Positions 689 to 21,521 of a stretch of 64,000 nucleotides of DNA are shown here, one piece after another. The notes under the pieces are model-generated. The model was not told the DNA's origin, ran no database searches, and saw nothing but the letters and a program-made list of their open reading frames with translations. A program made the translations under genes and the position numbers. How positions within the stretch are numbered: the first letter of the stretch is position 1; each line of letters begins with the position of its first letter. Origin of the DNA: Alphaproteobacteria bacterium (lineage in GTDB: Bacteria; Pseudomonadota; Alphaproteobacteria; SP197). The stretch is taken from assembly GCA_009694045.1 (NCBI GenBank), contig SHVY01000008.1, forward strand, positions 1 to 64,000. The letters are read 5' to 3'.

Positions 689-1690
689 ATGGACACGCTG
701 CCGCCGCATGACGAGCTCCTGAACCGGATCGAGGCGCTGGCCACGGCGGCACTGCCCCGCTGGGGCCTCGCGGGCGCGCGTCTGACGATGATCAACCATT
801 CGGAGAACACGACCTACCGGGTCGATCCACGGGGTGGTTCGCGGCCCGTGGTCCTGCGCGTCCACCGCCAGGGCTACCACACGGTCAACGGCATCCGCAG
901 CGAACTCGCCTGGATGCGGGCGTTGCAGGCCGAGGCCGGGGTGCGGACGCCGCAGGCCATCCCCGGCGAAGACGGCCAGGACATCCAGTCGGTCGCGCAC
1001 GGCTCCCTGCCCCACCCCCGGAACTGCGTGCTGTTCGCCTTCATCGACGGCGCCGAGCCCCGCCAGGACGGCGACCTGATCGCGCCGTTCAAGCGGTTGG
1101 GCGAGGTCACGGCCCGCACCCACCGGCATGCGATCGGCTGGAAGCGGCCACCCTGGTTCGAACGTCTGACCTGGGATTTCGAGCACAGCCTGGGCGCGCA
1201 CCCGAACTGGGGTCCCTGGACCGACGGGCCCGATCTCACGCCCGAACGGCGCGCGCTGCTGGGGCGGCTGGTCGACGTGATGGCGGCGCGCCTGGTGCGC
1301 TTCGGCAAGGGCCCCGACCGCTACGGGCTGACCCACGCCGATTTCCGCCTGGCCAACCTGCTGGTGCACGAGGGCGAAGTCCGGGTCATCGATTTCGACG
1401 ACAGCGGCTTCGGCTGGTTCCTCTACGACGCCGGCACCGCGGTCAGCTTCTTCGAGCATGCGCCCGAGGTGCCCGCGCTGATGGCGGCGTGGATGGAGGG
1501 CTACCGCCGGGTGCGCCCGCTCGCGTCCGACGACGAACGCGAGCTTTGGACGTTCATTCTGCTGCGCCGGATGATCCTGTTCGCCTGGATTGGCTCCCAT
1601 GGCGAGACCGACCTCGCGCGGGCCGAAGGCCCGGCCTACAGCTTCCATACCTGCGAGCTGGCCGAACGCTACCTCGCGCGGTTCGGCTGA
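689..1690 (+). CDS. APH-family small-molecule phosphotransferase (candidate aminoalcohol kinase of the BMC)
   Basis: ORF with APH motifs YGLTHADFRLANLLV and VIDFDDSGFGWFLYD; first gene of the BMC operon; in-frame ATG at 689. Confidence 0.8.
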   Translation: MDTLPPHDELLNRIEALATAALPRWGLAGARLTMINHSENTTYRVDPRGGSRPVVLRVHRQGYHTVNGIRSELAWMRALQAEAGVRTPQAIPGEDGQDIQSVAHGSLPHPRNCVLFAFIDGAEPRQDGDLIAPFKRLGEVTARTHRHAIGWKRPPWFERLTWDFEHSLGAHPNWGPWTDGPDLTPERRALLGRLVDVMAARLVRFGKGPDRYGLTHADFRLANLLVHEGEVRVIDFDDSGFGWFLYDAGTAVSFFEHAPEVPALMAAWMEGYRRVRPLASDDERELWTFILLRRMILFAWIGSHGETDLARAEGPAYSFHTCELAERYLARFG

Positions 1691-1706: not shown

Positions 1707-2993
1707 ATGGCGAGTCTCGAAAAACAGCAATTCATCGAGGATTCCAAGCGCTTCTGGAACCCGGGCAAGACCCAGGCTTGGCAGGACATGGAGGTCGATC
1801 TCGTCATCGACCGGCGCGAGGGCTACTTCCTCCACGACCTCGACGGCCGCCGGCTGATCGACGTCCACTTGAACGGCGGCACCTACAACATCGGCCACCG
1901 CCACCCCGAGCTGATCGAGGTGATCGAGCGCGCCATGGGCCGGTTCGACATGGGCAACCACCACTTCCCCTCGCTCGGCCGCACCGCGCTGGCCAAGGAA
2001 CTGGCCCGCATCTGCGGCGGCGACATGCACTACACGATCTACGGCTCGGGCGGGGGCGAGGCGATCGACATCGCCATCAAGACCGCGCGCCATGCCAAGC
2101 AGAAGCGCAAGATCGTCTCGATCATTCGCGCCTACCACGGCCACACCGGACTCGCCGTATGCGCCGGCGCCGACCGGTTCTCCAAGCTGTTCCTGTCCGA
2201 CCGTCCCGACGAATTCACCCAGGTGCCGTTCAACGACCTGAACGCCATGGAAGACGCCATGCGGGCGAAGGACGTGGCCGCCGTCATCATGGAGACGATC
2301 CCCGCGACCTACGGCTTCCCCATGCCCCTGCCCGGCTACCTCAACGAGGTCGAGAAGCTGTGCCGGCGCTACGACGCCCTCTACATCGCCGACGAGGTGC
2401 AGACCGGGCTGATGCGCACCGGCGAGATGTGGGGCTATCAGCGCTACGGCGTGAACCCGGACATCCTGGTGACCGGCAAGGGCATCTGCGGCGGCATGTA
2501 CCCGATTGCCTGCGTCGTGGTGCGCGAACCCTACGCCGGATGGCTCAAGGAGGACGGCTTCGGCCACATGTCGACCATGGGCGGGGCCGAGATCGGCTGC
2601 CTGGTGGCGATGAAGGTCCTGGAGATCCTGGAGCGCCCCACCGTGCGACCCATGGTCAACTACATCGCCGAGACCATGCGCAACGGCCTCAACGAGATCA
2701 TGAGCCTGTACTCCGATTTCTTCGTCGGCATCCGCCAGTGCGGCGTGGTGATGGGGCTGGAGTTCGACTACCCCGAAGGCGCCAAGCCGGTGATGAAGCA
2801 CCTGTACGAGAACGGCGTCTGGGCGATCTTCTCCACCCTCGATCCCCGGGTGCTCCAGTTCAAGCCGGGGATTCTCATGACCGCCGACCTCTGCCAGGAG
2901 CTCCTGGAGCGGGTGGAACGCTCGATCGGCCTCGCCCGCGCCGAATGTCTGGGCAAGAGCCTGGGCAAGAGCCGCCTGAGACACGCCGCATGA
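1707..2993 (+). CDS. Class-III PLP aminotransferase fold protein (candidate aminoalcohol-phosphate phospho-lyase)
   Basis: Class-III motifs: YGSGGGEAIDIAIK, DALYIADEVQTGLMRTGEMWG, PLP-lysine region DILVTGKGICGGMYPIA. GGAGG RBS at ~1693 favours the ATG at 1707. Follows the kinase and precedes a BMC aldehyde dehydrogenase. Confidence 0.85.
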   Translation: MASLEKQQFIEDSKRFWNPGKTQAWQDMEVDLVIDRREGYFLHDLDGRRLIDVHLNGGTYNIGHRHPELIEVIERAMGRFDMGNHHFPSLGRTALAKELARICGGDMHYTIYGSGGGEAIDIAIKTARHAKQKRKIVSIIRAYHGHTGLAVCAGADRFSKLFLSDRPDEFTQVPFNDLNAMEDAMRAKDVAAVIMETIPATYGFPMPLPGYLNEVEKLCRRYDALYIADEVQTGLMRTGEMWGYQRYGVNPDILVTGKGICGGMYPIACVVVREPYAGWLKEDGFGHMSTMGGAEIGCLVAMKVLEILERPTVRPMVNYIAETMRNGLNEIMSLYSDFFVGIRQCGVVMGLEFDYPEGAKPVMKHLYENGVWAIFSTLDPRVLQFKPGILMTADLCQELLERVERSIGLARAECLGKSLGKSRLRHAA

Positions 2994-4552
2994 CCGCGAT
3001 CGTCCGCGAACTCCTGGCCGGCAAGCGGCGCGAGACCGGCGCCGCCGACCTGATGTTGCAGACCGCCGAATGGGCGGCCGCGGCCTTCGCCGGGATGAAC
3101 CGGGGCGCGGTCGAGGCCATCGTCCGCGCCGCCGCCGATGCGGGTTTCGCCCACGCCGGTCGGCTCGCCGAGGCGGCCGTCAAGGAAACCGGCTTCGGGG
3201 TCGCCGCCGACAAGAAAATCAAGAACGAGCTGTGCTCGCGCGGCATCCACGAGGCCTATCGCGACCGCGACTACTGCGGCAAGCGGGTGCGAGCCGAGGA
3301 CAAGATCGTCGAGATCCCCCGCCCCGCCGGCGTGGTCTTCGCCCTGACCCCCTCCACCAATCCGGTGTGCACGGTCTACTTCAAGGTGCTGCTCGCGCTG
3401 ATGACGCGCAACGCCATCATCGTCTCGCCCCACCCGCTCGCCAAGGCCTGCTCCACCGAGGCGGCGCGGGTCATGGCGGCGGCGGCCGAGCAAGCCGGGG
3501 CGCCGGCGGGCGTCGTGCAAGTGATCGAGGAGCCGAACCTCGCGCTGGTCGACTACGTCATGCGCTCGCCACGGGTCGGCGTGATCCTCGCCACCGGCGG
3601 CACGCCGATGGTCCGGGCCGCCTATGGTTCGGGCACTCCGGCGATCGGGGTCGGCCCGGGCAACGCGCCGGTGCTGGTGGATGCCTCGGCCGACGTCGAG
3701 GCCGCCGCCCGGCGCATCATCGATTCGAAATCCTTCGACAACTCGGTCCTGTGCACGAACGAGAGCGTGGTGATCGCCGAAGAGGCGATTTACGACAAAC
3801 TATCGACCGCGCTCGGCCGCGCCGGAGCCTATTTCGCGAAAACCGACGAGGTCGATCGCCTCCGCGCCGTCCTGTTCGACGGCGGTTCCTTCAACGTCGC
3901 CCTGCTCGGGCGCTCCGCCGCCACCATCGCGCAAACGGCCGGGTTCCGGGTGCCCGCGGCGACCCGGGTGCTGATCGCGCCGCTCGATCGGGTCGGCGTC
4001 GACGAACCCCTCTCCCGGGAAAAACTCTGCCCTGTCCTAGGCTTGGTGCGCGTTCCTCAGGTCAACTCTGGGATCGCCACCGCCCGCGCCCTGGTCCGCT
4101 TGTCCGGAGCCGGCCATTCCGCCGCGATCCACAGCAGAAACCCAGCTAATATCATGGCCTTCGCGGCGGCCGTTAAAGTTCTACGCGTGGTCGTCAACAG
4201 TTCCTGCAGCCAGGGTGCGGCCGGTTTCTCCACCCACCTCGCCCCCACCTTCACGATCGGCACCGGCTTCTTCGGCCGCTCCTCGGTGGGCGAAAATATC
4301 GGCCCAGATCAGCTCGTTAACTGGACCCGCATCGCCTACGACACCGCCGAGCCCCTGGGCGATTTCAGCGGCCTGGAACCCTGGTCGCGCCTCCTCCCCG
4401 CCGCCACCGGCCGCGAAGCGCCGATCTCGCTGGGCGTCCTGCAAGAAGGCGCTGTGAAGGCGACCCCGGCCGTGCCGGACGAACTTTCGGTGGTGCGCGA
4501 CGAAATCCGCCGCGTCGTGCTGGAAGAGCTGCGCCGAGCGCTCAAGGGATAG
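2990..4552 (+). CDS. CoA-acylating aldehyde dehydrogenase, PduP/EutE-like, microcompartment type
   Basis: Read in the frame of ORF 1778..4552 from the ATG at 2990 (ATGA overlap with the upstream stop). TPSTNPVCTVYFKVLLALMTRNAIIVSPHP, catalytic Cys region SKSFDNSVLCTNESVV, GPGNAPVLVD. C-terminal amphipathic helix SVVRDEIRRVVLEELRRALKG resembles an encapsulation peptide. Confidence 0.88.
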   Translation: MTAIVRELLAGKRRETGAADLMLQTAEWAAAAFAGMNRGAVEAIVRAAADAGFAHAGRLAEAAVKETGFGVAADKKIKNELCSRGIHEAYRDRDYCGKRVRAEDKIVEIPRPAGVVFALTPSTNPVCTVYFKVLLALMTRNAIIVSPHPLAKACSTEAARVMAAAAEQAGAPAGVVQVIEEPNLALVDYVMRSPRVGVILATGGTPMVRAAYGSGTPAIGVGPGNAPVLVDASADVEAAARRIIDSKSFDNSVLCTNESVVIAEEAIYDKLSTALGRAGAYFAKTDEVDRLRAVLFDGGSFNVALLGRSAATIAQTAGFRVPAATRVLIAPLDRVGVDEPLSREKLCPVLGLVRVPQVNSGIATARALVRLSGAGHSAAIHSRNPANIMAFAAAVKVLRVVVNSSCSQGAAGFSTHLAPTFTIGTGFFGRSSVGENIGPDQLVNWTRIAYDTAEPLGDFSGLEPWSRLLPAATGREAPISLGVLQEGAVKATPAVPDELSVVRDEIRRVVLEELRRALKG

Positions 4553-4555
4553 CGG

Positions 4556-5164
4556 ATGGCCGAACTGCGCTCCTTCATTTTCATCGACCAGTTGCAACCA
4601 CAGACCATGTGCTATCTGGCCACCTGGATGCGGGGCCGGCTGCCGCGCGCCAACATGGCGGCGCAGATCATCGAAGTCGCTCCCGGCCTCGACATCGAAC
4701 CCCTGACCGACGTTGCCCTGAAGCACGCCGAGGTCGGCGGCGGCGTCTTGGTGGTGGAGCGCCAGTTCGGCTACCTGGAGTTCCACGGCCGCTCGACCGC
4801 CGCGGTCAAGGCCGCGGCCCGCGCGGTCCTCGACGTGCTGGGGGTGAGCGAGGAGGCCGCGATCCGCCCCCAAATCCTCGCCTCGCGCATCGTCACGGGG
4901 ATCGATCCGGTGCACGCGTTCCTCATCAACCGCAACAAGATCGGCTCCATGATCCTGCCGGGCGAATCGCTCTTCGTCCTCGAGATGCAGCCGGCTTCCT
5001 ACGCGATCCTCGCCGCCAACGAGGCGGAAAAGGCGGCGGAGATCAAGATCGTCGACTACCGCATGATCGGCGCCACGGGCCGGGTCTATCTGTCGGGCGA
5101 GGAGTCGTCCTTGCGCGCCGGCGCCGAGGTCGCCGAGCATACCCTCGCGGCCTTGGCGCATTGA
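4556..5164 (+). CDS. BMC-T (tandem BMC-domain) shell protein
   Basis: Two BMC-like units: AAQIIEVAPGLDIEPLTDVALKHAEVGGGVLVVERQFGYLEFHG and SLFVLEMQPASYAILAANEAEKAAEIKIVDYRMIGATGRVYLSGEESSLRAGAEVA. Confidence 0.85.
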   Translation: MAELRSFIFIDQLQPQTMCYLATWMRGRLPRANMAAQIIEVAPGLDIEPLTDVALKHAEVGGGVLVVERQFGYLEFHGRSTAAVKAAARAVLDVLGVSEEAAIRPQILASRIVTGIDPVHAFLINRNKIGSMILPGESLFVLEMQPASYAILAANEAEKAAEIKIVDYRMIGATGRVYLSGEESSLRAGAEVAEHTLAALAH

Positions 5165-5171
5165 GGGCCCC

Positions 5172-5573
5172 ATGATCGACGGCGAAACCCTCCGCTCCCT
5201 GGTCCGCGACGCGATCGCCGGCGAACTCGCCGGCTTGCGCAAAGGCGCCAAGGCGGCGCCGATCGCCATCGGCAGTGACGCCGATTTGCGGGCCTTCGCC
5301 CGGGACGTCTTGCGGCTGGCCGAGGATGCGGCCGTCCGGGCGGCGATCGCGGCTGGGACCTATCCGTTCACCCTGGCGACGGGGGCGGGTCCGGCGACCG
5401 GACAAGGCAATCCCGTCGCCACCATCGACAAGGGCGTGGTGACCGAAACCTCGCTCACGCGCCTGCCGAAGGGAATCGTCAAACTGTTGCTCGCCGACGG
5501 CGTCACGGTGACGCCGCTGGCCAAGGACCGGGCCCGGCGGCTCGGCATCACCATCGAGAGGTTGAAGCCATGA
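5172..5573 (+). CDS. Conserved BMC-associated protein of unknown function
   Basis: 133-aa ORF embedded between shell genes; N-terminal MIDGETLRSLVRDAIAGELAGLRKG looks like an encapsulation-peptide helix; C-terminal LLADGVTVTPLAKDRARRLGITIERLKP. Confidence 0.6.
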   Translation: MIDGETLRSLVRDAIAGELAGLRKGAKAAPIAIGSDADLRAFARDVLRLAEDAAVRAAIAAGTYPFTLATGAGPATGQGNPVATIDKGVVTETSLTRLPKGIVKLLLADGVTVTPLAKDRARRLGITIERLKP

Positions 5574-5848
5574 TCCGTGGACATGTCGTGGGCAGCGTCT
5601 GGGCGACCAAGCGCCTTGAAAGCATACCGGCGGGCGCCTTTCTGGAAGTGGAAACCGCCGGCGGCGGGTGCTTGGTCGCCTTCGATGTGCTCGGTTGCGG
5701 CGAAGGCGAGGAGGTCTTGATCGTTTCCGGCTCGACTGCCGCGGCCTGGCTTGGCGGCGGCAAGATCCCGATCGACGCTCTCATTATCGGGTCGATCGAT
5801 CACCGCGGCGGCGAGTCTCCGCCGGCACGCAGCGGTTCGCGAAAATAG
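5570..5848 (+). CDS. BMC-P pentameric vertex protein (EutN/CcmL family)
   Basis: MIRGHVVGSVWATKRLESIPAGAFLEVE...GCLVAFDVLGCGEGEEVLIVSGSTAAAW...PIDALIIGSID is typical of EutN/CcmL; ATGA overlap with the upstream ORF. Confidence 0.9.
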   Translation: MIRGHVVGSVWATKRLESIPAGAFLEVETAGGGCLVAFDVLGCGEGEEVLIVSGSTAAAWLGGGKIPIDALIIGSIDHRGGESPPARSGSRK

Positions 5849-5876: not shown

Positions 5877-6158
<282 letters not shown>

Positions 6159-6185: not shown

Positions 6186-6809
6186 GTGACCCAGCTCCGC
6201 GTCTATCTGCTGATCGAGCGGCTGGCCCGCCAGTTCGCGGCGTATATGGCGACGCCGACGCGGGCCCGCGGCTACCCACCCATGGAGGGCGAGTCGAGCC
6301 TGATCATCGAGGTGGCGCCGGCGCTCGCCATCCACCGGATCTGCGACCTCGCCCTCAAACACGCCCCGGAGATGGAGCCGGGCCTGCTGTACGTCGAGCG
6401 TCAGTACGGCCTCCTCGAGCTGCATTCGGCCGACCTCGACGCCCTCGGGCGCGCGGGTGCTGCGATCCTCGCCGGCATCGGCGCCAAGGCCGGCGATCAG
6501 CTCAAGCCGCGTACGCTGTACTCGGACATCATCGCCGACATCGCCGATCAGCATGCGATCGTCGTGAATCGCACCCGCGAGGGGTCGATGATTCTCCCGG
6601 GGCAATCGCTCCTGCTCTACGAGATGGAACCGGCGCTGTTCGCCTCGGTGGCCGCGAACGAGGCGGAGAAGGCGGCCCCGGGGATAACCCTCGTCGACGT
6701 GCAGATGATCGGCGCGAGCGGACGCCTGTTCCTGGCCGGTTCCCGCGAGGATTGCGAACGCGCCCGCACCCGGGTGGACGAAGTGCTGCGGTCGGTCGCC
6801 GGGCAGTAG
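6186..6809 (+). CDS. BMC-T (tandem BMC-domain) shell protein, paralogue of 4556..5164
   Basis: GTG start; SLIIEVAPALAIHRICDLALKHAPEMEPGLLYVERQYGLLELHS and SLLLYEMEPALFASVAANEAEKAAPGITLVDVQMIGASGRLFLAG align with the first BMC-T. Confidence 0.83.
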   Translation: MTQLRVYLLIERLARQFAAYMATPTRARGYPPMEGESSLIIEVAPALAIHRICDLALKHAPEMEPGLLYVERQYGLLELHSADLDALGRAGAAILAGIGAKAGDQLKPRTLYSDIIADIADQHAIVVNRTREGSMILPGQSLLLYEMEPALFASVAANEAEKAAPGITLVDVQMIGASGRLFLAGSREDCERARTRVDEVLRSVAGQ

Positions 6810-6811
6810 AC

Positions 6812-8428
6812 CTACCCGGCGTCCTCGAGCACCATCGCCGCGCCCTTCTCGCCGATCATCATGGCGGGGGCGTTGGCGTTGCCCGAGGTCAGGGTGGGAA
6901 AGATCGACGCGTCGATCACCCGCAAGTGGGCGATGCCGTGGACCCGCAAGCGGTGATCGACGACGGCCCGCGTCGGGTCGGGTCCCATCGCGCAGGTGCC
7001 AACGGGATGGAACACCGAGTAGGCGCGCGCCTGCACGTCCGCGAGCAGATCGGCATCGGTCACCGCGGCAGGGCCCGGCTTGATCTCCTCGGCGATGACT
7101 CGCGCCATGGACGGGGTCGCGGCCAAGAGCCGGAGGAACCGGGCGCCTTCCAACAACTCCTGGCGATCGAAGTCCGTGGCGGCGTAATTCGGGTGAATGA
7201 CCGGCGGCACGTGCGGATCGGCCGAACCGATGCGTAGGAAACCAAGGCTCTCGGGCCGGCAGGGCGAGATGCTGGTGTAGAAACCGGGGAAGGGGTCGGG
7301 GCTCATCAGCGGCCGCACCCCGACCGGCGCCCGTTCGTATGTCAGCGGCGAGAAGTAGAGCTGGATGTTGGGTCGCGCGAGGCCGGGGCGGGAGCGATAG
7401 AATCCGCCACCCTGGTTGAGGCTCAAGGATAGGGGCCCCCGCCGGGTCAGCACGTAGCGCAGGCCGGCGCGCAGCTTGCCAACCCAGGTGTTGAGCTCGT
7501 CATTGAGGCTCGGCACGGCCGCGCGATAGGTGTGGTCGTAGCAAAGGTGGTCCTGCAGATTCCGCCCCACCGCCGGGCTCGCGTGGCGCACCGCGACCCC
7601 GCAATCGCGCAGGGTTTCGGGCGGGCCGATGCCGGACAGTTGCAGAAGTTGGGGCGAGTTCACGGATCCGCCGCACAGGATCACCTCGCGCGCCGCGTGC
7701 GCCTCGACGCTTCGCCCGCCACGATCGAAGACCACGCCGGTGGCGCGGGTGCCATCGAGCACGATCCGGGTGACGAGGGCCCCGGTGACGATCCTGAGGT
7801 TGGGGCGCCGTCGCGCCGGCCAAAGGTAGGCCCGCGCGGCCGATAGCCGGAGTCCGTCGCGGGTGGTGATCTGATAGTGGCCGACGCCTTCGATGGTGGC
7901 GCCGTTGAGGTCTGGGCTCGCCGGGATGCCGGCCTCGACGCCCGCTTTGATGAACACGTCGGTCAGGGGGTGGACCAGGCCGTCGATCGTGGTCACGTGC
8001 ACCGGTCCGCCGGCGCCGTGGTACGGGCCTGCGCCAAGGGCGTGATCCTCCATCCGTCGATAGACCGGCAGGACGTCGCGCCAGCCCCAGCCGGGGTTGC
8101 CCAGCGCCTCCCAATCGTCGAAGTCCCCGGCCTGGCCGCGCGAATAGACCATGGCGTTGATCGAGCTGGACCCGCCCAACACCTTGCCGCGTGGCCAGTA
8201 GCTTGGGCGGCCATCGAGGCCGGGGACGCCTTCGGTCCGGTACATCCAATTGACCCTGGGATCGTGGAAGCACTTGCCGTAGCCGATCGGGGTCTGGATC
8301 CAGAACCGCAGGTCGGACGGTCCGGCCTCCAGCAGCAGGACCCGGTAGCGCCCGGATTCGCTCAGCCGGCTAGCGACGATGCAGCCGGCGGAGCCGGCGC
8401 CGACCACGATGTAGTCGTAAGTTTTCAC
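6812..8428 (-). CDS. GMC-family FAD-dependent oxidoreductase (choline/alcohol dehydrogenase-like)
   Basis: N-terminal YDYIVVGAGSAGCIVASRLSE; WPRGKVLGGSSSINAMVYSRG; C-terminal FHPVGTCAMG...VIDASIFPTLTSGNANAPAMMIGEKGA. Confidence 0.9.
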   Translation of the reverse strand: MKTYDYIVVGAGSAGCIVASRLSESGRYRVLLLEAGPSDLRFWIQTPIGYGKCFHDPRVNWMYRTEGVPGLDGRPSYWPRGKVLGGSSSINAMVYSRGQAGDFDDWEALGNPGWGWRDVLPVYRRMEDHALGAGPYHGAGGPVHVTTIDGLVHPLTDVFIKAGVEAGIPASPDLNGATIEGVGHYQITTRDGLRLSAARAYLWPARRRPNLRIVTGALVTRIVLDGTRATGVVFDRGGRSVEAHAAREVILCGGSVNSPQLLQLSGIGPPETLRDCGVAVRHASPAVGRNLQDHLCYDHTYRAAVPSLNDELNTWVGKLRAGLRYVLTRRGPLSLSLNQGGGFYRSRPGLARPNIQLYFSPLTYERAPVGVRPLMSPDPFPGFYTSISPCRPESLGFLRIGSADPHVPPVIHPNYAATDFDRQELLEGARFLRLLAATPSMARVIAEEIKPGPAAVTDADLLADVQARAYSVFHPVGTCAMGPDPTRAVVDHRLRVHGIAHLRVIDASIFPTLTSGNANAPAMMIGEKGAAMVLEDAG

Positions 8429-8435
8429 GGGGATG

Positions 8436-9308
8436 TTAGGCCGGCGTGTCCTGCAACCGCAGCGAGCCGGCGATCTCGATGTCGACGATCTGGGCTTGGC
8501 GGGCCGCTTCGGCGGCGCGTGCCTCCCGGCGGCGGCGACGGAGTTCGAAGACCACGGCGGCGATGATCGTCGCGGCGATGATGATGAAGGCCAGGGCGTT
8601 GACCGCCGGCGTCACGCCCTGACGCACCTTGTTCGCGATGAAGATGGTGAAGGTGTTCTCCGCGCCGATCGAGAAGTAGGTGGTGGTGTAGTTCTCGAAC
8701 GACTGCAGGAACGCGAGGGCGGCCGCCGACAGGAACGCCGGACGCATGTAGGGGACGGTGATGCGCCAGAACACCTGCCGCGGATTGGCACCGAGATCGA
8801 GGCCCGCCTCCTCGAGCGTGGTGTCGAAGCGCTGCAGGCGCGCCATGAAGATCAGCATGCAGTAGGCCGAGACGAAGCTCGATTGCGCCAGCGCCGCAGT
8901 CCACCAGGAGGCGCGGAAGCCGAGCTGCTGGCTCCAGAAGATGAAGGCCGAGATGCCGAGCACGATCCCGGGCGCCAGGATCGGCGAGACCAGGATGGCG
9001 TAGATCAGGCCCTTGGCGCGCACTTGCAGGCGCACCAGCATGAGCGCGCCGCCGAGCCCGAGGGTGATCGAGATCGCGACCACCAGCAGGGCAATGTAGA
9101 CGCTGTTCTCCAGCCCGCCCCACATGCGCTGGTCCTCCCACGCCGCACCGAACCACTCGAGCGTGAAGGTGAAGTCGCGATGGGTCGGGATGCGGCTGGT
9201 GTTGAAGGCGAGCAACGACATGTACGCCATCGGGAACAGCATGTAGCCGAAGAAGATCACGAGGTAGGCGCGGGTCGCCCAGGTGATGAGGGTGCGGCTG
9301 TCGTTCAT
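8436..9308 (-). CDS. ABC transporter permease, spermidine/putrescine type (PotC-like)
   Basis: Polytopic permease with EEAGLDLGANPRQVFWRITVPYMRPAFLSAA (EAA-loop region); adjacent to PotB- and PotA-like genes. Confidence 0.85.
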   Translation of the reverse strand: MNDSRTLITWATRAYLVIFFGYMLFPMAYMSLLAFNTSRIPTHRDFTFTLEWFGAAWEDQRMWGGLENSVYIALLVVAISITLGLGGALMLVRLQVRAKGLIYAILVSPILAPGIVLGISAFIFWSQQLGFRASWWTAALAQSSFVSAYCMLIFMARLQRFDTTLEEAGLDLGANPRQVFWRITVPYMRPAFLSAAALAFLQSFENYTTTYFSIGAENTFTIFIANKVRQGVTPAVNALAFIIIAATIIAAVVFELRRRRREARAAEAARQAQIVDIEIAGSLRLQDTPA

Positions 9309-9318
9309 GGCGCCGCCC

Positions 9319-10221
9319 CTATCGCGTGATGTCGCGCAACGTGACGCGGAACGCCCGCATCATGAACATCACGAACACGAGGCACACCAGCTCGAGCACC
9401 AGGGAATAGGCCGACCCGCCGTTCCAATTCAGCACCGAGAACTGCGATTCGATCGCCTGGGTGAACCAGAAGCTGGATTTGCCGCCGAGCAGCACGGGCA
9501 CGATGTAGGACCCGGCCGTCAGCATGAAGGTGACGATGCAGCCCGAGGCGATGCCGGGCTTGGCATGGGGGATGACGATGCGACGATGCACCCGCACCCA
9601 GCTCGCGCCCAGGTCCCGGGCCGCCTCCACCTGATTCTTGTCCAAGCTCTCCATGGCGTTGAACATCGGAAAGATCATGAACAGCACGTACGAGTAGATC
9701 AGTCCGACGAACAGCGCGACGTTCGAATCGATAATGGGGAGCTCGTAGTTGAAGAACTCGAACGGCTGGAACCCGAGCCCGACGAAGGCTTGGTTCACGA
9801 GACCATGCTTCGCCATCAGGGTCCGCCAAGCGTAGGCGCGCAGCACCTCGTTGACCCAGTAGGGGATCAGCAGGCAGAGCATCAGGATGCTCAGCCATTT
9901 GTTGGTGGCGACCTTGGCCAGGTAGTAGGCGAGCGGATAGCAGATCACGAGGGCAAGGACGGTGATGACGCCGCTGGTCAGCAGCGTGCGGATGAAGGTC
10001 CGGAGCGCGAGGTCGTCCTGGGTATCGACCAGCGGCAGGAACGAGTAGACGGTGAAGCCCGCCTCGGCCAACCCTTTCTTGACCGCGCCGGGGTTGGCGT
10101 GGAAGGCGTAGTCGATCAGCATCAGGTGCGGGATCAGGATCAGCAACAGCGCCCACACCGCCACCGATCCGAAGATGAAGGCGACGCCCAGCGTCCCGAA
10201 CCGCTTGACCGCCTCACGCAC
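9319..10221 (-). CDS. ABC transporter permease, spermidine/putrescine type (PotB-like)
   Basis: Probable GTG start (VREAVKRFGTLG) inside ORF 9319..10398; VEAARDLGASWVRVHRRIVIPHAKPGIASG EAA-loop region. Confidence 0.85.
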   Translation of the reverse strand: MREAVKRFGTLGVAFIFGSVAVWALLLILIPHLMLIDYAFHANPGAVKKGLAEAGFTVYSFLPLVDTQDDLALRTFIRTLLTSGVITVLALVICYPLAYYLAKVATNKWLSILMLCLLIPYWVNEVLRAYAWRTLMAKHGLVNQAFVGLGFQPFEFFNYELPIIDSNVALFVGLIYSYVLFMIFPMFNAMESLDKNQVEAARDLGASWVRVHRRIVIPHAKPGIASGCIVTFMLTAGSYIVPVLLGGKSSFWFTQAIESQFSVLNWNGGSAYSLVLELVCLVFVMFMMRAFRVTLRDITR

Positions 10222-11305
10222 GGGCGAGGCTCCCCTGGGGCAGCACGGTCGCGTGGTCGCGCCCGAAATAGGTGGAAAGCAGCGCACCGGTCGCGAAGCT
10301 CGGCACCGCGCCATCGTTCGACATGGTGACGATGATGGGGCGGCCCTTTGGATTGGCGAGCGAGATGTTGACCGTGATGCCTTCGAACACCTCGCCAAGC
10401 ACCGTCGAAGTCAGGGCGTTCTCGTCGGCCTCGCCGGACGGCGCGAGCCGGAGCCGCTCGGGCCGCACGAACACGAAGGCCTCGTCGCCTTGCTTCAGCC
10501 CGCGGGGATTGCCCCCCAACAACCGGCCGAACGACGTCTCGACCTGGGCTACCCCGTCGGACGCGGCCACGACCCGGCCGGCGAACAGGTTGTTCTCGCC
10601 GACGAACGACGCGACGAAGGCGGTTTCCGGCTGATTGTAGATGTCGGAGGAAACGCCTACCTGCTCCACGTGACCCTGGCTCATCACCGCCACCCTGTCG
10701 GACATGGCGAGCGCCTCGCCCTGATCATGGGTGATGTAGATGAAGGTGATGCCGGTGCGCTTCTGGATGGCCCGCAGCTCCGCCCGCATGTGCTGGCGCA
10801 ACTTGAGGTCGAGCGCCGAAAGGGGCTCGTCGAGCAGCAACACCTTCGGCTCGACCGCGAGCGCGCGGGCAATGGCGACCCGCTGCTTCTGCCCGCCGGA
10901 AAGTTCGTCGATGCCGCGATCGGCGAAGCCCGGCAGGGCGATCAGATCCAAGAGCTGCTCGACCTTGCGCAGGCGCGCCGCCTTGCCGACGCCGCGCACC
11001 TCGAGCGCGAACCCGATGTTCTCGGCGACCGACATCAGGGGGAACAGCGCCAGGTTCTGGAAAATGAGCGCGGTCGGGCGCCGGTTCGGCCCGAGGCCGA
11101 CCAGGTCCTGCCCGCCCAGGGAGATCGATCCCTCGCTCGGATCGATGAAGCCCGAGACCATGCGCAGGATCGTCGTCTTGCCGCAGCCTGACGGCCCCAG
11201 GAACGAGAAGAACTCGCCTTCCTGGATGGTGAGGTTCAGATCATGGACGGCCGTGAAGTCGCCGAACCGCTTGACGACGTGGTTGAAAACCAGATCGTTG
11301 CCCAT
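10214..11305 (-). CDS. ABC transporter ATP-binding protein (PotA-like)
   Basis: Walker A LGPSGCGKTT, signature LSGGQKQRVAIARAL, Walker B VLLLDEPLSALD, C-terminal TOBE-like region; start MGNDLVFNHVVKRFG. Confidence 0.92.
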   Translation of the reverse strand: MGNDLVFNHVVKRFGDFTAVHDLNLTIQEGEFFSFLGPSGCGKTTILRMVSGFIDPSEGSISLGGQDLVGLGPNRRPTALIFQNLALFPLMSVAENIGFALEVRGVGKAARLRKVEQLLDLIALPGFADRGIDELSGGQKQRVAIARALAVEPKVLLLDEPLSALDLKLRQHMRAELRAIQKRTGITFIYITHDQGEALAMSDRVAVMSQGHVEQVGVSSDIYNQPETAFVASFVGENNLFAGRVVAASDGVAQVETSFGRLLGGNPRGLKQGDEAFVFVRPERLRLAPSGEADENALTSTVLGEVFEGITVNISLANPKGRPIIVTMSNDGAVPSFATGALLSTYFGRDHATVLPQGSLARA

Positions 11306-11374
11306 CGCCCTCCCCCGCCGCGTGGATGCCGTGCCCACGCGATCCTTTGCGCCCATCGTACCGGCGATGCCGCC

Positions 11375-12487
11375 TCATGGGAACTCGCTCATTTGGTAGC
11401 GCGAACGGGCGAGCCATTCCGGCTCGATCTCGATGCCCCAGCCGGGTTCGTCGGTCACCTGCGCCGCGCCGCCGACGATGCGGTACGGGTCGCGGCGGAA
11501 GAGGCCGTACTGCCACGGGTAGTAGTCGGGGCCTTCGATGGAGAATTCCATATACTTGCCGGGGTTCGGAATCGCCCGCAGCAGGTGCATGGTGAAGAGC
11601 GTCACGAGCCCCCAGTTGGCGGCGTGGGGCGTGATCTTCATCCCCGCCGTCGCCGCCAGGCGGCAGACCCGGAGCGTCCGCGCGATGCCGCCCAGGTAGA
11701 GGATGTCGGGCTGCGGAATATCGACGACGTGATCGCCGATCATGCGGCGCCAGACGGTCATCTCGCAGTCCTGTTCGCCCCCGGAAACGGCGACCGACAG
11801 TGCGTCGGTGACCTGCTTGGTTTGGGCCAGCTCCCAATAGGGACAGGGCTCTTCGAAATGCTCGACGCCTTCGCCTTCGAGCACGCCACCCACCGCGATC
11901 GCACGCGGCGGCGAGAATCCGGAATTGGCGTCGACCAGCAGCGAAGCATCGGGGCCGAGCGCACGGCGGATCGCGGGCACGATCGCCTCGGTGCGGCCCG
12001 GCCATTCGTCGACATCATGGCCACACTCGGCGCCGACCCTGAACTTGAAGGCGTCGAAACCGTGCTCGCCACGCAACCGGGTAAACCGCTCGGCCTCGGC
12101 GGCCGGGGTGATGTCGCGTTTCATCGACGATGCGTAGGCGCGCAAGGGTCCGGGTGTTCCGCCCAACAGTGCCACGACGGGCTTGCCGGCGGCCTTGCCC
12201 CAGAGGTCCCACAGCGCCGTGTCGAACCCGCCCATCGCCCGCTTGATGTACGAACCGGGGAACTTGTGTTCCTTCTCCTCGACGCGGTCGAGGAGCGCGT
12301 CCAGGGCCGCGAGGTCCCGCACCTCGGCGCCCAGAACATGGGGCGCCACCTGGCGATGCAGGACCTGACAGCTGATGTCGGCATGGTAGGTCGAGACCTG
12401 GCCCCAGCCTTGCGCGCCATCCGACCGGGTGACGCGCACGAAGCCGACGAAGGCGTTGGTGAAAGTCTCCAGACGGGTGATCCGCAC
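11375..12487 (-). CDS. Enolase-superfamily (mandelate racemase / muconate lactonizing) enzyme
   Basis: MRITRLETFTNAFVGFVRVTRSDGAQGWGQ...FDTALWDLWGKAAGKPVVALLGG...SLLVDANSGF...HFEEPCPYWE...DILYLGGIARTLRVCRLAATAGMKITPHAAN. Confidence 0.88.
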   Translation of the reverse strand: MRITRLETFTNAFVGFVRVTRSDGAQGWGQVSTYHADISCQVLHRQVAPHVLGAEVRDLAALDALLDRVEEKEHKFPGSYIKRAMGGFDTALWDLWGKAAGKPVVALLGGTPGPLRAYASSMKRDITPAAEAERFTRLRGEHGFDAFKFRVGAECGHDVDEWPGRTEAIVPAIRRALGPDASLLVDANSGFSPPRAIAVGGVLEGEGVEHFEEPCPYWELAQTKQVTDALSVAVSGGEQDCEMTVWRRMIGDHVVDIPQPDILYLGGIARTLRVCRLAATAGMKITPHAANWGLVTLFTMHLLRAIPNPGKYMEFSIEGPDYYPWQYGLFRRDPYRIVGGAAQVTDEPGWGIEIEPEWLARSRYQMSEFP

Positions 12488-12557
12488 CGATCCCTCGCGA
12501 AAACAAGGGACGCGCCGCTCCAGCCGGAGCGGCGCGCCCAGAATGACGGAATCGCGG

Positions 12558-13733
12558 CTAGGCGGCCGAGATCTTGTCGGCCAGGCCCTGGCGCTTCTCC
12601 AGGAACCAGGTCCGCTCGATGCCCTGCAGCCAGAGGTTGTCGATGGCGTCGCCCGGATAGGCGTCCTGGAAGTTCTTTTTGAACGAGTCGGACGTAAAGG
12701 CGTCGAAGCCCGTCACCACCGAGTTGTACCCGGTGTTTTCGGACACGATGCCGCCGATCTCCGGCTGGAACGCGAAGTTGATGAAGGCGTAGGCCTGATC
12801 GATGTTCGCGGCGCCCGAGGTCAAGGCGATGGTGTCGATCCACATCAAGGCGCCCTCGACGGGGGCCAGATAGTTGTACGGCCGGCCCTGGTTCTTGAGC
12901 TGGAAGATCGGGCCGTCCCACGTCTGGCCGATCACCGCGCCGTCCTGCTCGAAGCCGGACTGGGTGTCGGCGGTGCCCTTCCACCAGTTGGCGATCTGCG
13001 CCTTGTTGGCGATCACGAACTCGGCGGCGGTGCCGTAGCCGAGATCGAACGCCTCCTCGTCGTCGTACGCCTTCTGCATGGTGCCCGCCGGCAGCTTGCC
13101 CTCGCGCTCCATCCACAGGCCGGTGCCGAGCATGATCGACCGCTGGCGGCACAGCATCTTGCCGGCGTTCTCCGGCGCCCACAGATCGCCGAACGACGCC
13201 TTGCCGTACTCGAGCTGCAGCACCTCGGTGTTGTAGGCCAGCGCCTCGGTGCCCCAATCGTACGGCAGCGCGTACCAGGCATCCCCCTGCCGCGCCCCGA
13301 GGCTGGCGGCCTTGTCCATCATGCTGGGGACGATGTTGCCGATGCTCGCGGCCTTCGCCGGGTCGAGAACGCCGAGATTGCCGTTTTCGACATGGGCGCC
13401 GATCCACGCGACGGACGGCGAGGTCAGATCCCAGCCCACGCCGCTGGCCGCCTTCAGCTTGTTGAGGCAATCCTCGTTGGACGAGAACGTGGTCACGTTC
13501 ACGGCGATGCCGGTGTCGGCCACGAAGCGGTCGATCAGGGGCTGCGGCGCGTAGTCTTCCCAGGTGAACCAGTTCAGCTCACCCGACGAGGACCGTGCGT
13601 CGCGCGAGAAAGCCGGGGCCAGGAGCCCGACCGCGCCGAGCGCGGTGGCACTCTTCAGGATGGCACGGCGGCTGGCCTGCGCCGCCCGTACCGTGGCCAG
13701 CGCACTGCGCTGGCCCTTGTTCAATGTCGTCAT
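12558..13733 (-). CDS. Extracellular solute-binding protein, spermidine/putrescine type (PotD-like), Tat-type signal
   Basis: SRRAILKSATALGAVGLLAPAF signal; GELNWFTWEDYAPQPLIDRFVADTGIAVNVTTFSSNEDCLNKLKA is typical of PotD/F-type binding proteins. Confidence 0.85.
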   Translation of the reverse strand: MTTLNKGQRSALATVRAAQASRRAILKSATALGAVGLLAPAFSRDARSSSGELNWFTWEDYAPQPLIDRFVADTGIAVNVTTFSSNEDCLNKLKAASGVGWDLTSPSVAWIGAHVENGNLGVLDPAKAASIGNIVPSMMDKAASLGARQGDAWYALPYDWGTEALAYNTEVLQLEYGKASFGDLWAPENAGKMLCRQRSIMLGTGLWMEREGKLPAGTMQKAYDDEEAFDLGYGTAAEFVIANKAQIANWWKGTADTQSGFEQDGAVIGQTWDGPIFQLKNQGRPYNYLAPVEGALMWIDTIALTSGAANIDQAYAFINFAFQPEIGGIVSENTGYNSVVTGFDAFTSDSFKKNFQDAYPGDAIDNLWLQGIERTWFLEKRQGLADKISAA

Positions 13734-13892
13734 CGATTGAGTCTCCCCTGTAATCAGTTGGCTTGAACCATTGCGGATGTCTTGATCGCACAAGTGAGTG
13801 TCAGAACGATGACAGTCGCTCGCGCTCGACGGAATGCTTTTCCGTTGCGGCGAATTGTAGATCGGGACAAAAGTCCGCACAAGCGGGAGACG

Positions 13893-15422
13893 TCAGCCCG
13901 CGCCCTTCGTGAGCTCCTCCTTACGCCGCGCCACGAATGCCTCGAGCGCCTCCAGCCGGTCCTGGGGCATGGCTGGCGGCTCATAGACGTCGAGCAGCGC
14001 CTGCCAGACCTGGGTCGCGCGCGCCTCGGCCTCGACCGCGCCCGCCTCCGCCCAAGTCCCGTAGTTGCGCCAATCGGACAGGAAGGGCGTGTAGAACGCC
14101 TGTTCGTAGCGTTCCATGGTGTGGGGCGAACCGAAGAAGTGCCCACCCGGCGCCACGTCGCGAATGGCTTCGAGGCCCATGCTCGCCTCGTCCGTGGCGA
14201 TGGGCGTCAGCATCTCGGCGATCTGCTGCAGCATCTCGGCATCCATGACGATCTTCTCGAACGAGGCGGTGAGCCCCCCTTCGAGCCAGCCGGCGCCGTG
14301 GTAGAGCAGGTTCGAGTGTCCCATGACGGACGCCCAGATCGACATCTGCGATTCATACACGGCCTGGGCGTCCGCCGCGTTGCTGGTGCAGGCGTTGGAT
14401 GACCGGTACGGCAGCCGATAGCGCCGCGCGAGCTGGCCGGCCGCGAGCGTCGCCTTGGCGTTCTCGGGCGTTCCGAACGTCGGCGCTCCGGACCGCATGT
14501 CCACGTTCGAGGTGAAGGCCCCGTAGATCACGGGCGAACCGGGCCGCACCGCCTGAGTGAGGGCGATGCCGGCCAGCGCCTCGGCGTTCTGCTGGGCCAG
14601 TGCCGCGGCCAGGGTCACGGGCGTCATGGCTCCCATGAGGGTGAACGGGGTCACGCAGACGCATTGGCCCCATTCCGACATCGTCATGAGACCTTCCGCC
14701 AGCGGCTCATCGAGGCGCCGTGGCGAGTTCACGCTGATGATGGTCGTCACGCCCGGCGACTCCCGCATCTGCTCGCGGGTGATGCCGCGCGACAGCGCCA
14801 TGATGTCGATGCCGTCCATCGCCCGATCGCGACCGACCGAGGTGCAGTGAAAGGCGCGGTCGGTGTAGACGACGTTGTCGTGGTAGCAATCGAGGTGCCG
14901 GGTTTCGGCCGCGAGTTCCACCGGCGCGATCGGCTGGTTGCCGACCATGTGGATGATGTTGAAGCTCTGGGCCAGGCTCAGCAGCCGGCGGTAGTCGGTG
15001 CGGTTGCCGTTGCGCCGGCCGTTCACCCGGTCATGGACGTTGGGCGGCCCCGCCACAAGGCCGAACACGATCGCATCGCCGCCCATGGTGACGGCATGGT
15101 CGGGATTGCGTGGCGTCAAGGTGACGCTCGACGGGGCCGTCCGGATCAAATCGGCGATCAGGGCGCGATCGAAGGTGACGACCGTGGTCGCCTCGTCCAC
15201 CTTGGCACCCTTGGAGCGCAGCAGGGATCGGGCCTCGCCGCTCATCACCTCGATGCCCATTTCCTCCAGGATCCGCATGGAGGCATCGTGGATGGCATCG
15301 ACCTGTTCGGGCCGCAGAACTTCGACGGGGGGAAACGGATTGCCGACCCGCCGCCATGGAAGCTGGCGGATCTCGGCCTTCTCGCGCACGCGCCCGGCGC
15401 GTCGCGCATTACTTCTCGTCAT
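13893..15422 (-). CDS. Trimethylamine methyltransferase (MttB) family protein, no in-frame amber codon
   Basis: 509-aa ORF (MTRSNARRAG...): EVLRPEQVDAIHDASMRILEEMGIEV...GGDAIVFGLVAGPPNVHD...GAFTSNVDMRSGAPTFGTPENAKATLAAGQLARRYRLPYRSSNACTSNAADAQA. Confidence 0.87.
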   Translation of the reverse strand: MTRSNARRAGRVREKAEIRQLPWRRVGNPFPPVEVLRPEQVDAIHDASMRILEEMGIEVMSGEARSLLRSKGAKVDEATTVVTFDRALIADLIRTAPSSVTLTPRNPDHAVTMGGDAIVFGLVAGPPNVHDRVNGRRNGNRTDYRRLLSLAQSFNIIHMVGNQPIAPVELAAETRHLDCYHDNVVYTDRAFHCTSVGRDRAMDGIDIMALSRGITREQMRESPGVTTIISVNSPRRLDEPLAEGLMTMSEWGQCVCVTPFTLMGAMTPVTLAAALAQQNAEALAGIALTQAVRPGSPVIYGAFTSNVDMRSGAPTFGTPENAKATLAAGQLARRYRLPYRSSNACTSNAADAQAVYESQMSIWASVMGHSNLLYHGAGWLEGGLTASFEKIVMDAEMLQQIAEMLTPIATDEASMGLEAIRDVAPGGHFFGSPHTMERYEQAFYTPFLSDWRNYGTWAEAGAVEAEARATQVWQALLDVYEPPAMPQDRLEALEAFVARRKEELTKGAG

Positions 15423-15528
15423 GGGCCAACCCTTCTCGGCCGCGGGGCGCGGGTGCGGGGCCTCGGCACCATGAGGCGATAGCACGCGGCGGCCAACGAA
15501 ATCCAGCCCGCGGCCCCCTCGCCCTTGA

Positions 15529-15831
15529 TCAGGCGGGTCCCTCGAACCGGGGGTAATCGCTGTAACCCGCGGCACCGCCGCCATAGAACAGGTCGGTCTT
15601 CGGCTGCGCCAACGTCCAGCCCCGGCGCATCCGCTCCGGCAGGTCGGGGTTGGCGATGAACGGCACGCCGAACGCGGCGAGGTCGACCAGACCGCTCCCC
15701 AGCCAGGACTCGGCGGCACGGGACTCCAGGGCGCCGCACAGGATGATGGGGCCGGGAAAATGCCGGCGGAACCGGCGCAGGAAGTCCGAGGGAATCCGGC
15801 GCACCGGTCCCGAGGCGCTGCGCTGGCACAA
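15529..15831 (-). pseudogene. C-terminal remnant of an NADH:flavin oxidoreductase / old yellow enzyme
   Basis: RRIPSDFLRRFRRHFPGPIILCGALESRAAESWLGSGLVDLAAFGVPFIANPDLPERMRRGWTLAQPKTDLFYGGGAAGYSDYPRFEG matches the OYE C-terminus; the rest of the barrel is absent upstream. Confidence 0.75.
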
Positions 15832-15992
15832 CGAACATGCTTATCGGGGGTGAAATGACCATCCGGTACCATGTGACGGTGTCCTGGCTGGGCGACGAAT
15901 GGCAGGACCTGAATATTCAGGATTTACCGCTCAAAGCGCTACAACCCTGGGTCGCTCGGTCAAGTCGGGTGATGACAATTGAGAGGGGATGG

Positions 15993-20525: not shown

Positions 20526-21521
20526 TCAGCCGGCCGGGCGGTCGAGATACCAGCGCACGGTGCGGCGCAGGCCCTCGGCGAGCCCGACCTCGGCCGACCA
20601 GCCCAGGCGGTCCCGGGCCTTGGTCGTGTCGGCGAAGTTGCGGCGCATCTCGCCGGCAAGGGGCGGCGCGTGGCGCACCGCCACGTTCGTGACGCCGGCG
20701 TCGCGGAGGATCGGCACCAGGGTGTCCGCCAGCTCGCCGACCGACGTTTCGCGGCTGGTGGCGATCTGGAACAGCTCGCCCGCGATTCCGGGAACCGTCG
20801 CGGCGAGACGAATGGCGCGCACCAGGTCATCGATGTAGATGAAGTCTCGGGTCTGGCCGCCGTCACCGAACAGCTCGAGAGGTTCGGCGGCAAGCGCCCG
20901 GCGGACGAACTTGGCCACGACGCTGCCCTTATGGCTGGACCGGGGGCCATAGACATTGCTGAAGCGGAGCGCGACCGTCGCCAACCCGAATCCGTGCGCG
21001 AACGCCGAGCAGTAGCCTTCGCCGGCCAGCTTGCTGGCGCCGTAGGGTGACATCGGTCGGGCCGCCAGGCGCTCGTGGATCGGCGGATCGGCGGCCCCGA
21101 GCGGCGCCCCCGACGAGGCGAAGACGAACCGTTCCACCCGCGCCGTTCGCGCCGCCAGAAGGGCGTTCAGGGTGCCCTCCACGTTGGCGCGGCAATCGCT
21201 CATCGGATCGTCGAGCGATTGCTGCACGCCGGTCGATGCCGCGAGATGAACCAACACGTCCGCCCCGGCGGCGGCCCGGATCAGGAGGCCGGCATCGAGG
21301 ATATCGCCGACGACCAGCTCGACCCCGGCGTTGCCCCCCCGGCCGAGCGGCCGCAGCGTGGCGGCATCCAGGCGATGGACCGACCCAACCCCCGCCAGCG
21401 CCGCCGCGCTCCCGACCGTCAGGTTGTCGATGACCCGAATGGCGTGGTTGCCCTCGGCTTCGAGGGCGGCGATCAGGCTGGTCCCGATGAACCCGCAGCC
21501 GCCGGTGATGAGCCAGCGCAA
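20526..21521 (-). CDS. NAD-dependent epimerase/dehydratase
   Basis: RWLITGGCGFIGTSLIAAL Rossmann motif; SPYGASKLAGEGYCSAFAHGFGLATVALRFSNVYGPRSSH. Confidence 0.88.
   Translation of the reverse strand: MRWLITGGCGFIGTSLIAALEAEGNHAIRVIDNLTVGSAAALAGVGSVHRLDAATLRPLGRGGNAGVELVVGDILDAGLLIRAAAGADVLVHLAASTGVQQSLDDPMSDCRANVEGTLNALLAARTARVERFVFASSGAPLGAADPPIHERLAARPMSPYGASKLAGEGYCSAFAHGFGLATVALRFSNVYGPRSSHKGSVVAKFVRRALAAEPLELFGDGGQTRDFIYIDDLVRAIRLAATVPGIAGELFQIATSRETSVGELADTLVPILRDAGVTNVAVRHAPPLAGEMRRNFADTTKARDRLGWSAEVGLAEGLRRTVRWYLDRPAG

Follow-up and report, generated by a model that had tools for sequence, protein, structure and literature searches.

CcmN and CsoS2 are shell–cargo linkers of carboxysomes. 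How metabolosome shells are attached to the enzymes inside them is not yet settled, and EutQ and PduM are described cases that bear on it. In Salmonella EutQ, residues 9–41 (H1/H2) act on the side of the shell, and the encapsulation peptides (EPs) of the cargo are held by H3/H4; EutQ lacking residues 62–99 (H3/H4) remains with shells, EutQ lacking residues 9–41 remains with the cargo core, EutQ, EutM, and EutL bind one another, and deletion of eutQ separates shell and core (PMC12487888). PduM is needed for normal Pdu assembly by a mechanism called unresolved in 2025, its residues 1–23 suffice for reaching the core, and it was stated to have no known sequence homology outside Pdu (PMC12108088). 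Core and shell are partly separated in a pduM deletion, and when residues 1–37 of PduB are missing, PduM remains with the core with no significant shell association (PMC9132943), which suggests that the shell contact of PduM, if any, is weak or indirect.

A conserved gene of RMM-type loci

Within the window (the whole stretch of DNA that was analyzed, 64,000 nucleotides of an alphaproteobacterial contig, SHVY01000008.1), a 133-residue ORF lies between the genes for BMC-T and BMC-P and shares an ATGA stop/start with the latter; its coordinates and sequence are as the initial annotation had given them (Table 1). The stop codon of BMC-T 1 is followed by 7 nt and then the start of the ORF, ahead of which lies a ribosome-site-like stretch, GAGG, at positions 5163–5166. 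Six neighbors have Pfam matches that confirm them (APH, aminotransferase III, Aldedh, BMC, EutN_CcmL, and BMC), and BMC-T 2, which has no Pfam match, is assigned by its likeness to BMC-T 1. An APH kinase, a class-III aminotransferase, an aldehyde dehydrogenase, two BMC-T, BMC-P, and BMC-H are thus found together, the combination by which an RMM-type locus was recognized, and this is an RMM-type microcompartment locus. Beside it on the minus strand (window positions 6812–15872) are a GMC oxidoreductase, an ABC transporter with a solute-binding protein, a mandelate racemase/enolase family protein, and an MttB-family methyltransferase, possibly an amine-catabolism neighborhood.

Table 1. Features of the RMM-type locus and of the 133-residue protein (window coordinates)
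Feature	Coordinates	Strand	Basis
APH-family phosphotransferase (RMM kinase position)	689..1690	+	Pfam APH
Class-III aminotransferase	1707..2993	+	Pfam aminotransferase III
Aldehyde dehydrogenase with C-terminal EP-like helix (RDEIRRVVLEELRRALK)	2990..4552	+	Pfam Aldedh; C-termini compared
BMC-T 1	4556..5164	+	Pfam BMC; partner in co-occurrence test
Putative RMM linker protein (the 133-residue protein)	5172..5573	+	ORF check; about 25 relatives
N-terminal EP-like amphipathic helix, residues 4–23	5181..5240	+	AlphaFold; amphipathicity tests; aligned N-termini
Middle domain, residues 29–70 (SDADL-AFA ... GRHxFxL)	5256..5381	+	Conservation; AlphaFold
Flexible linker of variable length	5382..5417	+	pLDDT below 50 at residues 71–79
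C-terminal module, residues 83–131, common to PduM, TIGR02536, EutQ, and EutT; predicted shell-docking	5418..5564	+	
ATGA stop/start overlap of the 133-residue ORF with BMC-P	5570..5573	+	Kept in 24/27 loci
BMC-P (EutN_CcmL)	5570..5848	+	Pfam
BMC-H	5877..6158	+	Pfam BMC
BMC-T 2	6186..6809	+	46% identity to BMC-T 1

Single-sequence searches of the 133-residue protein against Pfam, the PDB, and genome contigs match nothing, and no Pfam or NCBIfam model reaches its cut-off with it. Profile searches in two collections retrieve about 25 distinct relatives from Alphaproteobacteria, Gammaproteobacteria, and Actinomycetota, found in Dongia and other Rhodospirillaceae-type bacteria, Hyphomicrobiales, one gammaproteobacterium, Nocardioides, Mycolicibacterium, and Leucobacter. 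In all loci with relatives the gene occupies the slot between BMC-T 1 and BMC-P, and in 24 of 27 its stop codon runs into the start codon of BMC-P, an arrangement implying that translation of the two is closely coupled. Co-occurrence with RMM-type loci, which the initial annotation had proposed as a check, is complete: an RMM BMC-T is present in 11 of 386 genomes of the class, and the gene is found in exactly those 11 and in none of the 375 others. The ORF represents a real conserved family strictly associated with RMM loci.

The C-terminal module and its relatives

The C-terminal module of about 45 residues, folded alone by AlphaFold (pLDDT 89, pTM 0.65), is predicted to form a beta-alpha-beta-beta-alpha-beta unit. 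A linker followed by a small domain ending VTVTPLAKDRARRLGITIERL had been recognized at the outset; what had been missed is that this domain is a BMC-specific module common to PduM, TIGR02536, EutQ, and EutT. Profile comparisons indicate homology with PduM and TIGR02536, in which the module forms the C-terminus, and with EutQ and EutT, in which it forms the N-terminus. On its own, the 133-residue protein matches NCBIfam models weakly (TIGR02536, E 0.007, 16 bits versus a curated cut-off of 152.6; the PduM model TIGR04493, E 0.015, 15.2 bits versus a cut-off of 50). Among its relatives, 22 of 24 match TIGR02536 (best E 2.5e-5) and 10 of 24 match TIGR04493 (best E 1.8e-5), and the Pfam model of PduM (PF15953) reaches a best E of 0.0018 among family members. 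A PduM family search of 299 proteobacterial genomes found none, and PduM sequences were therefore taken from plasmid records. Comparison by hhalign gives a score of 30.9 (P 2.3e-5) against PduM, and for the module a probability of 92% (P 6e-7) against EutQ and 94% (P 1e-7) against EutT, with 0 of 200 column shuffles scoring as high in each case.

A profile built from RMM sequences only and run on 1,797 ORFs (Pdu and Eut loci plus the whole window) returns microcompartment proteins only at E < 0.02: an 89-residue Eut protein (1.6e-6), the C-terminus of a phosphotransacylase (PTAC; 2.9e-5), PduM (1.5e-3 and 9e-3), and TIGR02536 (0.014). When iterated, this profile gathers PduM, TIGR02536, EutT, EutQ, the PTAC C-terminus, and the 89-residue Eut protein, with no further ORF of the 1,797 below E 0.1. 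With an EutQ-only profile, TIGR02536 and the RMM proteins rank directly behind EutQ (E 0.015 for the 133-residue protein), and with an EutT profile the module of one RMM protein (G702, L071) lies near EutT (E 2.8e-7).

The specificity of the module was assessed in six-frame genome searches: all 11 places found at E ≤ 1e-4 in 399 proteobacterial genomes belong to RMM, Eut, or Pdu genes, and the matches outside microcompartment loci, at E above 1e-3 (L075–L079 and L084), are weak and were taken as chance. A cytochrome c555 profile match was rejected because a short helical match is repeated three times in one chain. Foldseek finds no match at E ≤ 0.001 for the whole model or for the module alone, and a weak likeness to Cas1 (E about 0.2–0.4), which is without sequence support, was also rejected. 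Searching the PDB with a profile of the module returns only myc-tag, antibody, and ribosomal-protein noise; thus no solved structure contains the module by sequence.

Domain layout compared with Pdu and Eut proteins

AlphaFold places a helix at residues 4–23, with lower confidence at 21–30. We took as an EP an amphipathic terminal helix of 15–20 residues joined to a flexible linker. The EP-like N-terminus described in the initial annotation gains some support from this predicted helix and from the family-average amphipathicity, which is significant at the best angle within 85–110° (p = 0.006, with data and shuffles treated alike, in a test devised after a peak at 90° had been seen); in the single sequence the hydrophobic moment of residues 6–23 does not exceed that of shuffles (p about 0.16), and the family average at 100° alone is not significant (p = 0.21). 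A helix much like it closes the aldehyde dehydrogenase encoded in this locus, and a C-terminus like that of this enzyme is present in all RMM loci compared. An encapsulation-peptide role for the N-terminal helix is plausible, not proven.

The middle domain is modeled as a strand-helix-helix-strand unit spanning residues 29–68, and the linker that follows is predicted to be disordered. The pTM of the whole 133-residue model is low (0.36), which is normal for a protein whose parts are connected flexibly. In three relatives from a single genus (L031:883-1743, L032:1498-2355, and L033:889-1734), a SnoaL_2 (NTF2-like) domain is inserted in the linker, as identified by a Pfam match in L031 (PF12680, E 2.5e-19) and by a like insert seen in the other two, which suggests that the two ends of the protein work as separate parts.

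PduM (TIGR04493, PF15953) shares with the RMM protein the C-terminal module and a gene directly upstream of BMC-P, the order pduM–pduN paralleling that of the 133-residue gene and BMC-P; its N-terminal signal helix has a putative counterpart in the predicted helix of the RMM protein. The middle region of PduM, however, bears no likeness to that of the RMM protein beyond shuffles; derivation of the latter as a shortened PduM middle was rejected, with 109 of 200 shuffles scoring as high, and the unrelated middle indicates that the 133-residue protein is not PduM proper. TIGR02536, from the eut locus of Clostridioides difficile, has the same helix–middle–linker–module layout and is likewise encoded directly upstream of EutN/BMC-P but is longer and has a different middle. 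The RMM module aligns over nearly its whole length with the N-terminal H1/H2 region of Salmonella EutQ, and each protein has a further, helical portion for contact with the cargo, a putative one in the RMM protein; the order in EutQ is reversed, with the module first, then H3/H4, and then the cupin acetate-kinase domain (PF06249), which Pfam does not find in the 133-residue protein. EutT carries the module at residues 1–45, fused, unlike in the RMM protein, to a cobalamin adenosyltransferase.

Two further Eut loci distribute the module differently. In the one C. difficile locus that was read, the module is missing from a cupin EutQ (L042:17926-18393) and is found instead on a TIGR02536 protein encoded separately (15261-15986), whereas enterobacterial EutQ itself bears the module, an apparent split of the two roles of the enterobacterial protein. 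The Acetoanaerobium locus has three copies, in an EutT-like protein, at the C-terminus of an EutD-type PTAC (L040:20200-21099), and in the 89-residue protein (21138-21404), none of which adjoins BMC-P.

A proposed shell–core linker and its alternatives

We consider it likely that the 133-residue protein is a shell–core linker of the RMM microcompartment, with its N-terminus in the core and its C-terminal module on the shell. Such a protein would link the shell and core of the aminoacetone/1-amino-2-propanol (RMM) organelle: the N-terminal helix would attach to the enzyme core by helix contacts of the EP type (the aldehyde dehydrogenase encoded nearby ends in a similar helix); the flexible linker would lead to the 45-residue module; and the module would dock on the shell, in the way that its homologue in EutQ, H1/H2, docks where EutM and EutL meet. 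The protein would then act as PduM and the N-terminal part of EutQ do, with its domains in the order seen in PduM. CcmN and CsoS2 follow the same shell–cargo linker logic (discussed in PMC12487888), although no relation in sequence to them is expected. Shell binding by the module and core binding by the N-terminus are what we infer as the simplest reading of these likenesses, and the translational overlap would presumably set the amount of the protein relative to BMC-P. The early suggestion of an assembly protein, scaffold, or cargo adaptor with an EP-like N-terminus is supported.

Since the module is also carried by enzymes (EutT and the EutD-type PTAC), it may serve as a shell address in general and need not always belong to a linker. 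Extended to the RMM protein, and with EutQ added to these enzymes, this would make the module a shell address or ligand-sensing tag for minor proteins at the inner shell face, and the protein itself a passenger, or a partner or chaperone of BMC-P, as their overlap in 24 of 27 loci might suggest, that forms no bridge. Most RMM members, however, have no catalytic domain, the EP-like helix stands at the opposite end as it does in PduM and TIGR02536, and deletions of EutQ and PduM separate shell and core (PMC12487888, PMC9132943), all of which leave this reading improbable, if worth keeping in mind. It is quite unlikely that the protein merely fills or scaffolds the core, carrying an EP tag and remaining with the cargo without ever contacting the shell: PduM does remain with the core and not the shell when PduB residues 1–37 are missing (PMC9132943), but the RMM module is homologous to H1/H2 of EutQ, and EutQ without H3/H4 goes with the shell (PMC12487888).

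A missing enzyme of the pathway, also raised in the initial annotation, finds little room. A small enzyme or cofactor-recycling subunit targeted by an N-terminal EP would fit with the description of RMM loci as lacking a recognized PTAC and alcohol dehydrogenase (PMC4207490), and with the SnoaL_2 domain in the linker of three relatives. That insert, however, was seen in a single genus, and Pfam and NCBIfam searches match no enzyme family to the protein or its relatives; none had been recognized in the initial annotation either. The family alignment holds no catalytic-looking set of conserved polar residues, its invariant residues clustering instead in a TPLA motif and at hydrophobic and glycine positions, and part of the 133 residues is a disordered linker. 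These features argue that the protein is not an enzyme, and we regard an enzymatic role as very improbable indeed.

For the preferred shell–core linker, the comparison reaches beyond RMM, as a single small module connects EutQ, in which the part played by the module has been measured, with PduM, TIGR02536, EutT, and the RMM protein, and the RMM locus supplies a comparison that was missing for PduM. We give an even chance to the broader proposal that metabolosomes have this 45-residue module in common as a domain for docking on the shell and that PduM, TIGR02536, and the RMM protein are one bipartite linker class in three organelle types, each binding the core with an N-terminal helix and the shell with the C-terminal module, with EutQ order-swapped. 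If true, this would account for PduM and lead one to expect a linker of like kind in other metabolosomes. The homologues of PduM found here outside Pdu suggest what its C-terminus does and raise a testable question, whether that C-terminus docks on the shell; for the RMM organelle they provide a named part, and for engineering a short candidate shell-docking tag.

The shell–cargo linker class is already known; its RMM member, the common module, and the link to PduM appear to be new, as judged from titles and abstracts and from excerpts of locus descriptions. Among titles and abstracts no paper connects PduM with TIGR02536-type proteins, the 2025 EutQ study (PMC12487888) does not mention PduM, and the excerpted RMM locus descriptions list shell proteins and enzymes with no mention of the 133-residue gene. 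An earlier listing as an unnamed conserved gene is possible in the mycobacterial organelle literature or the supplement of the 2021 BMC catalogue. Module-bearing sequences may also appear under another family name: residues 6–92 of Escherichia coli EutQ (L039:16303-17004) align with the N-terminal part of NF007991, the EutA model of NCBIfam (E 1.6e-9), which suggests that some EutA proteins or gene models bear the module.
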